This document shows positions 1 to 36,069 of a DNA stretch of 64,000 bases, piece by piece. The notes below the pieces were generated by a model. The model was not told where the DNA came from. It made no database searches and worked only from the letters and a program-made list of their open reading frames with translations. Origin of the DNA: an uncultured Acholeplasmataceae bacterium (GTDB taxonomy: Bacteria > Bacillota_I > Bacilli_A > Acholeplasmatales > Acholeplasmataceae); contig CAKMKH010000031.1 in NCBI GenBank assembly GCA_927441705.1, positions 1-64,000 of the forward strand, written 5' to 3'. Position 1 is the stretch's first letter; every line of letters begins with the position of its first letter. The position numbers and the translations under genes were made by a program.

Positions 1-262
1 GTTGTATAAAAAACTTCGATTTTGGATATTGAAGAAGCCATTGTTAACATATTTGATGACCCAACAAAAATCGAAGTTTTTTATACAACAAAAGAAGGAC
101 TTCCGGTGATAAAAATATGATTAAATGTATTGTTGTATAAAAAACTTCGATTTTGGATATTGAAGAAGCCATTGTTAACATATTTGATGACCCAACAAAA
201 ATCGAAGTTTTTTATACAACAAAAGAAGGACTTCCGGTGATAAAAATATGATTAAATGTATT
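1..262. repeat. Two perfect tandem copies of a 131-bp unit (1-131, 132-262); each copy begins with a 23-nt inverted copy of its own downstream sequence (1-23 vs 67-89; 132-154 vs 198-220)
   Basis: Direct reading: both copies identical from gttgtataaaaaacttcg to ...aaatgtatt; a third copy starts 'gttgt' then diverges into rlmH. Confidence 0.95.
156..251 (+). pseudogene. C-terminal tail of the gene upstream of rlmH (DIEEAIVNIFDDPTKIEVFYTTKEGLPVIKI*), 5' part absent from window; stop overlaps rlmH start (ATGA)
   Basis: In-frame translation to TGA 249-251; also present in the first tandem copy (25-120). Confidence 0.6.
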
Positions 263-33731: not shown

Positions 33732-34616
33732 ATGACAAAAAATGATAGATCTAAAATATTATCAGCCATTTATGTTGGTTTAATCATTAACATTTTATTA
33801 ACACTTATCAAACTAGGTTTTGGTATATGGGGAGATGCACAATCATTGATCTCAGATGGGATTAATTCTTTTTCTGATATATTCATGAGCTTACTTATAT
33901 TTTTTGTTTTAAAAGTAGCAACTAAAAAACCTGATAAAGATCATCCATATGGACATCAAAAATTTGAAGGATTAGCTTATTTTACGATTGGTATCTTATT
34001 TTCATTTACAGCCATTTATTTGGGTTATAGAGCTGTATCTAGTATTATCGACTATGCACTATTAGATGAAGTTATTGTTAAACCAAATATTATCACACTA
34101 TATGTTTCAATGCTTGCGTTGATTATAAAAATATTTTTAGCATATTTCTATTTTAAATTAAATAGGAAATATAAAAATCCAACACTAAGAGCTGAATATA
34201 AAAATCATTTTTATGATATTTTTTCTACAGGTCTAACTGTGATTGTTTTAACTTTATCACAATTCGATTTGATTATATTCGACTATATTGGTTCGCTTGT
34301 AATTAGTTTCTTCATTTTGAGGCTTGCTATCCAAATTATAATTGAAGCATCATCATTTCTTGTCGATCAAGCACCAAACCAAGATGAAATAATTGACGTT
34401 GAAATATTTATCAAAAACATTGCGGGTGTATTATCTATTGATGATTTGAGAATTAGGAAGCATATGACTGAAAGATATGTAGACGTCGAAATTGGAGTTT
34501 CTGAAAATTTATCTTTGAAAGAAGCACATGATATAGCAGAAGTTGTCCATCAAGAGGTTGAAAAAAAATATAGGGAAGTTATTCATTGTATGGTTCACGT
34601 TAATCCACATAAATAA
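33732..34616 (+). CDS. Cation diffusion facilitator (CDF) transporter
   Basis: DAQSLISDGINSFSDIFMS, KDHPYGHQKFEGLA; C-terminal CDF domain. Confidence 0.93.
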   Translation: MTKNDRSKILSAIYVGLIINILLTLIKLGFGIWGDAQSLISDGINSFSDIFMSLLIFFVLKVATKKPDKDHPYGHQKFEGLAYFTIGILFSFTAIYLGYRAVSSIIDYALLDEVIVKPNIITLYVSMLALIIKIFLAYFYFKLNRKYKNPTLRAEYKNHFYDIFSTGLTVIVLTLSQFDLIIFDYIGSLVISFFILRLAIQIIIEASSFLVDQAPNQDEIIDVEIFIKNIAGVLSIDDLRIRKHMTERYVDVEIGVSENLSLKEAHDIAEVVHQEVEKKYREVIHCMVHVNPHK

Positions 34617-34617
34617 A

Positions 34618-34867
34618 AAGACACGCCCATCTGGGGGTGTCTTTTTTAACAGATCTTATAGTTTTTCGAATAAGTTTAAATAGAAATATGTGAAAGAGTA
34701 TACAAGTTCTCACCTATGGATGTTTCAAAAGATGATTTAAAACTAATACATGGTGAAGATGAGAAAATAACTAAAGAAAACGTGATACATGGCACATATT
34801 TCTATTTAAACTTATTCGAAAAACTATAAGATCTGTTAAAAAAGACACCCCCAGATGGGCGTGTCTT
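34618..34867. repeat. 75-bp perfect inverted repeat (34618-34692 / 34793-34867) with 100-bp spacer; each arm contains a terminator hairpin and the 3' end of an M20 peptidase gene
   Basis: Direct reverse-complement comparison of aagacacgcccatctggggg...aaatatgtg with cacatatttc...cccccagatgggcgtgtctt. Confidence 0.95.
34692..34829 (+). pseudogene. Displaced C-terminus of the M20 peptidase on the opposite strand (ERVYKFSPMDVSKDDLKLIHGEDEKITKENVIHGTYFYLNLFEKL*)
   Basis: In-frame translation matches the typical M20 C-terminal pattern (xVYRFSP...IHGxxExI...NxxxG..Fxxxl). Confidence 0.85.
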
Positions 34868-36069
34868 ACTATTCCAAACACATTATCAACAGTAGAAGTT
34901 GAAGTTGCTTCAGAGATTTTTAAAACTTCAATTTCTATATTATTGTTTCTAATGACTTTTCTTACTTTTTTTATAACATCAGCTGATGTCTCACCAGGTC
35001 TAATCCTATAATTAATACCAACTGATGCAGAAGTCGGTAGAACATTAATAGCGTCACTTGCTGTAGATGTTGTAAATGCTTGTGTTGTTTTAAACATTGA
35101 TAATAACTCTCCACCAGATATTTTTGCAATCAATTTCACAACTGGTGTAAATATCCAAAGATTTGCAAATATCATTTTGATTGCAAAGCTTTTTGAAAAA
35201 GGCGCAAGCGTATCAAATAATATCTTAACTGAAGAAGTAATTTTTAATTTAAATATATTTGTATTGTTAAGTTTTATTACTGCTTTAGAAAGGATTGTTA
35301 CTGCGGTATCTTTTGGTGGAGTTGATGCATGGCCACCTTTAGAATAAGCAGTTAATTTTAGATTCATAAATCCTTTTTCAGCAATACCAACTACTGCAAC
35401 TTTTTTACTTACACCTGGAAACATATTGGAGACGATTGCTCCACCCTCATCAAGTACAATATAAGGGTTAATGTTATTTTCTTTAAAATATTCAACCATT
35501 AAATGTTGTGTCTCACCATAAATTTCTTCTTCACCAGAAAATGATACGTATAAATCATTTTTAAATTTTTTACCAAGAGAAAAACTGTATTCTAAACTTT
35601 CCATGATAGCATTTAAACTACTTTTTGTATCAAGAGCTCCTCTACCATAGACATATGTCTCATCAATATCACCACCAAATGGATCGAACGTCCAGTTTCC
35701 TTCAACTGAAACGACATCAAAATGGGCCATTAGGACTGTAGGTTCTTCGTCGCTTTCACCTTTAATATGAAATAAAACTCCAGTTCCAATTTCTTTATAA
35801 GTAGCATGTTCATTAATTAGAGGATATCTATTTTTTAAATGTTCTTTAAAACTCTTGAAAGCTTTTTGATCTACCATTTTAGAGTCAAGATATGAGATTG
35901 TTGGGATTTTAATTTTTTGAGATAATGATTCTAAGACTCTAAGCTCATCAATATCATATTTCTTTCTCATTTCCGGATATAAGATGGGTTTAAAGTTTAA
36001 AGTTCTTGTTATAATGACCAATATGATTAGTGTAAAAATTCCAACCAAACCATATATAACATAATCCAT
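34771..36069 (-). pseudogene. M20-family peptidase, 3' end replaced by inverted-repeat sequence (about 35 conserved residues plus native tail lost)
   Basis: MAHFDVVSVE, YGRGALDTKSS, FSGEEEIYG motifs; last ~34 codons read through the 75-bp arm. Confidence 0.85.

Follow-up and report, generated by a model that had tools for sequence, protein, structure and literature searches.

A perfect inverted duplication that splits an M20 peptidase gene in an uncultivated Acholeplasmataceae genome is very probably an amplification chimera

In the assembled genome of an uncultivated Acholeplasmataceae bacterium, a gene for an M20-family peptidase is broken by a perfect inverted duplication of its own 3' end, with loss of the segment that encodes its C-terminal metal-ligand region. 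The break is very probably a chimera made during amplification of the DNA; an artefact is the likeliest origin, rather than the biology of the organism, because the same assembly holds many similar flipped ends. The gene itself is probably intact in the organism.

Structure of the rearranged locus

Analysis was centred on a window of 64,000 nucleotides, this being the whole stretch of DNA under study, taken from a 64.7-kb contig. A left arm (34618..34692, plus strand) and a right arm (34793..34867, plus strand) had been proposed to form a perfect 75-bp inverted repeat, and the two proved to be reverse complements at 75 of 75 nt, without mismatch, on either side of a 100-nt spacer (34693..34792, plus strand). 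No other inverted repeat in the 64-kb window comes near this length: the next pairs have 26–35 nt, are 74–87% complementary and lie over 19 kb from each other. The DNA fold of the repeat region reaches −93.4 kcal/mol, against −18.7 ± 3.5 kcal/mol for shuffled sequences, which places it 21 standard deviations beyond them.

The left arm retains everything in its original place: the terminator, the M20 stop codon and the last codons of the gene. On the far side of the terminator lies an intact convergent gene for a CDF-family cation efflux transporter (33732..34616, plus strand; Pfam Cation_efflux 3.2e-38, ZT_dimer 1.5e-18; TIGR01297). The terminator hairpin (AAAAAGACACGCCCATCTGGGGGTGTCTTTTT; 34615..34646, an inverted repeat with strand unassigned) is common to both convergent genes, and its RNA fold was calculated at −19.3 kcal/mol (z −6.8). 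A copy of the convergent-gene terminator had been noted in each arm, and this was confirmed: the left arm has the original, and the right arm carries the M20 end and terminator as a duplicated, inverted copy. In the spacer the plus strand now reads the C-terminal codons of M20 (ERVYKFSPMDVSKDDLKLIHGEDEKITKENVIHG), with the residues seen at the C-terminus of intact orthologues.

What remains of the peptidase gene on the minus strand is a truncated ORF of 432 aa (34771..36069; Peptidase_M20 2.3e-12, M20_dimer 2.2e-11). It is native to about position 34867 and then runs on through some 32 foreign residues; alignment with orthologues bears out the earlier reading that M20 homology is lost after ...STVDNVFGIV(R). 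That reading had also placed the M20 C-terminus on the plus strand, starting at the arm edge. The strand is right, but homology begins at 34683 (EICER...), inside the arm, rather than at 34693, since both sides of the junction share 10 nt. With the arm included, the plus-strand C-terminus (EICERVYKFSPMDVSKDDLKLIHGEDEKI...YFYLNLFEKL, then a stop codon) is 94% identical to that of one congener over 48 aa.

As had been noted, the segment with the DSR motif is missing, and it was found neither at the locus nor elsewhere in the sampled genome; a search of the rest of the sampled genome likewise gave neither another intact copy nor a variant from another strain. The lost segment is about 26 aa long (QAIKKTWPEVIVTPYLMVATSDSRHYH-like) and reads (Q)AIKKTWPEVIVxPYLMVATSDSRHYH in orthologues. 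The histidine of the DSRHY region is a metal ligand in the M20 family, and the encoded product thus lacks the C-terminal metal-ligand region of an active M20 metallopeptidase.

Comparison with congeneric genomes

The orthologous locus was examined in four congeneric genomes, three of them assembled in one or two contigs. An intact M20 gene was present in all four (477–482 aa), as it was in other family members, and no such inverted repeat was found at the orthologous site in any of the four. Aligned to the congeners, the locus resolves into three pieces, which run plus, inverted and plus. A 76-nt stretch of one congener (G001, 407358-407433) has no counterpart at the rearranged locus, and the deletion is estimated at ~76–80 nt, DSRHYH included.

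Both joints show microhomology, of 10 nt at one and 5 nt at the other. At switch point 1/2 (34683..34692, plus strand) the sequence GAAATATGTG is the reverse complement of the last stretch of the gene, CACATATTTC, and also forms the EIC codons of the DSRHYHEICER motif, so that it is shared, inverted, between the two; an orthologue (L005) reads CATGAAATATGTGAG here, and the alignment of the relatives begins at 34683. At switch point 3/4 (34862..34866, plus strand) the shared sequence is TGTCT (minus strand AGACA), which is both the base of the terminator and the M20 Arg-Gln codons, the orthologue sequence being GTTAGACAA. The same geometry against four congeners and the microhomology at both joints support a fold-back or template-switch inverted duplication with deletion, as originally proposed.

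Tandem inversion duplications, known from Salmonella, consist of direct, inverted and direct copies. The M20 locus resembles them in its inverted copy and the short homologies at its joints, but it comprises one original and one inverted copy, with no third direct copy, has lost parental material and measures hundreds of nucleotides rather than kilobases. Another parallel in arrangement is the four-point template-switch model (PMC7954356 and work cited there), in which a sequence is assembled from the fragments L→1, 2→3 (as the reverse complement) and 4→R. Exactly these fragments, in that order and with the middle one reversed, make up the M20 locus, and here too a perfect inverted repeat is created from three ordered pieces. 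Judged from the sequence, inversion, duplication and deletion would all follow from a single four-point event. The model covers mutations in living genomes, an origin that is improbable for the M20 locus.

The CDF transporter and M20 genes (window 33732-36069) are adjacent and convergent here; in congeners G001, G002 and G004 they are ~8–10 kb apart. The segments that lie between them in G001 and G004 have no match at the DNA level in the portion of this genome that was sampled, and the difference in spacing may be either a natural indel or a further rearrangement.

Survey of inverted duplications across the assembly

Perfect inverted repeats with a spacer of up to 1.5 kb were sought in 101 stretches of the same assembly (1.21 of 1.76 Mb; some short contigs read as N), and those with arms of at least 50 nt were counted. 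There were 15, the M20 locus included; the other 14, spread over 13 contigs, all lie no more than 320 nt from an end. Only ~6% of the sampled sequence is as close as 400 nt to a contig end, and a binomial estimate for such clustering is ~3e-17, a value to be read with the caveat that two pairs share a contig and are hence not independent. The arm (75 nt) and spacer (100 nt) of the M20 locus fall within the range of the other cases (51–136 and 52–658 nt, respectively). Perfect inverted duplications of 51–136 nt were recorded at the contig ends of this genome (G000) in L128, L109, L075, L127, L160, L167, L108, L132, L066, L085, L070 and L111. Arms of at least 50 nt were absent from 0.40 Mb of closed relatives, from 0.23 Mb belonging to two further draft assemblies in the family and from 0.39 Mb of other loci, in which the largest was 35 nt.

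A k-mer graph of about k = 127 would merge the two strands at some arm length and end the contig there, and the longest arms (129–136 nt) seem to mark that limit. The M20 locus, with an arm of 75 nt, is below it and may in this way have stayed in the interior of its contig.

Three contig ends are demonstrably rearranged relative to relatives, with inverted pieces and short overlaps. The end of contig C74 (L132) is colinear with G002 and then folds back with a 13-nt overlap and a deletion of 97 nt; after an inverted segment of 176 nt a second jump follows, with a 3-nt overlap, an anatomy nearly that of the M20 locus. At the end of C51 (L109) a fold-back shares ~7 nt, and at the end of C82 (L160) an inverted piece has 9 nt in common with its neighbour. 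The end of L128 can be aligned to relatives only in part.

Origin of the rearrangement

Of the chimeras of multiple displacement amplification (MDA), more than 85% are reported to be inverted with an intervening deletion; most joints have 2–21 nt of complementarity, and about one junction arises per 22 kb (Lasken and Stockwell 2007, PMC1855051). The M20 locus likewise combines an inverted segment, an intervening deletion and short complementary priming sequences (10 and 5 nt, inside the published range), and the distance between its partners is far below 10 kb. The assembly contains many more independent cases, 14 further inverted duplications against none in ~1.03 Mb of controls; such an abundance of like fold-backs at contig ends across the genome favours the amplification-chimera half of the earlier reading. 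The Pseudomonas umuC fold-back at the start of contig C24 points the same way. Unlike the published chimeras, this one has two joints in a single product and became the contig consensus.

The chimeric molecule would have formed in whole-genome amplification of the phi29 type before sequencing and then entered the contig. A displaced 3' end that finishes in GAAATATGTG would anneal on the opposite strand to its complement CACATATTTC, ~110 nt ahead, and be extended backwards for ~175–185 nt through the M20 C-terminus, the stop codon and the terminator. Released at the base of the terminator hairpin, the growing strand would prime again at TGTCT on the original strand, giving a product in which the M20 C-terminus is inverted, the gene end and terminator are doubled and ~76–80 nt are lost. 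Both the copying in vitro and the role of phi29 are inferred, as the sequencing method is not stated and the library method is undocumented for this genome; a literature search on a single-cell origin for the lineage returned nothing specific. Three points count against an amplification chimera: this is the sole contig-interior inverted duplication with arms of at least 50 nt, and the chimera therefore had to be the dominant molecule there; two switches are needed within ~180 nt; and, at 97%, the assembly is more complete than would normally be expected from one amplified cell. An error of the assembler alone is improbable, since reads would not be joined on overlaps as short as 10 and 5 nt.

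Alternatively, a genuine and very recent four-point template switch, within or between strands during replication in the living cell, may have inactivated the M20 gene of this uncultivated Acholeplasmataceae bacterium, helped by the 10-nt inverted repeat and the terminator hairpin. Equal geometry and microhomology would be expected of such a mutation (PMC7954356), the joint lies in the middle of a 64.7-kb contig, and a return at the foot of a stable hairpin is in keeping with pausing of the polymerase. Against this, the two arms do not differ, and the C-terminal codons left on the plus strand are still open and 94% identical to those of a congener, so little or no time can have passed since the event, and similar contig-end structures, non-native by comparison with relatives, fill the same assembly. 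We consider a mutation in vivo improbable, and keep it in consideration because the locus is the only interior case and the sample preparation is unstated. If real, the event would be a clean case from bacteria of a short-range template switch with several switch points, ~180 nt long.

That the structure is a functional DNA element, whether an invertible switch, a mobile element or a large regulatory hairpin, is extremely improbable despite the long perfect repeat and very stable fold, as it is single-copy in the sampled genome, its arms are merely the host gene's own end and terminator, and four congeners lack it at the same site; under neither origin, in vitro or in vivo, is it such an element. 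A phase-variable or invertible switch was rejected on the further ground that ~26 codons are absent from the sampled genome, so that inversion of the 100-nt spacer would not restore the gene. A mobile element or repeat family was likewise discarded, since a search of the sampled genome with the repeat locus matched nothing but that locus and the opposite arm.

With an amplification chimera as the preferred origin, the biological weight of the locus is small. Its weight is in quality control: this species-representative genome has numerous fold-back chimeras at the ends of its contigs and very probably one or more in a contig interior. Broken genes, inverted repeats and apparent pseudogenes in it are not to be taken as evolution, and the representative genome merits a flag for chimeric contig ends.

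Other contig starts

The start of contig C24 (L083 1-225) is a GC-rich fold-back joined to AT-rich sequence. Its best fit is a Pseudomonas plasmid umuC, 99.2% identical over 125 nt, and it is apparently either foreign DNA or an inter-species joint; L083:1-1500 gave no DNA match to the four congeners. E. coli was rejected as its source, with no megablast match and only 60–80% identity in distant mode. At the start of the contig that holds the M20 locus (C31; window 1-260), the first ~130 nt are tandemly repeated, with the inverted pair GTTGTATAAAAAACTTCGATTTT / AAAATCGAAGTTTTTTATACAAC in each copy, which looks like an assembler loop or a contig-end fold-back.
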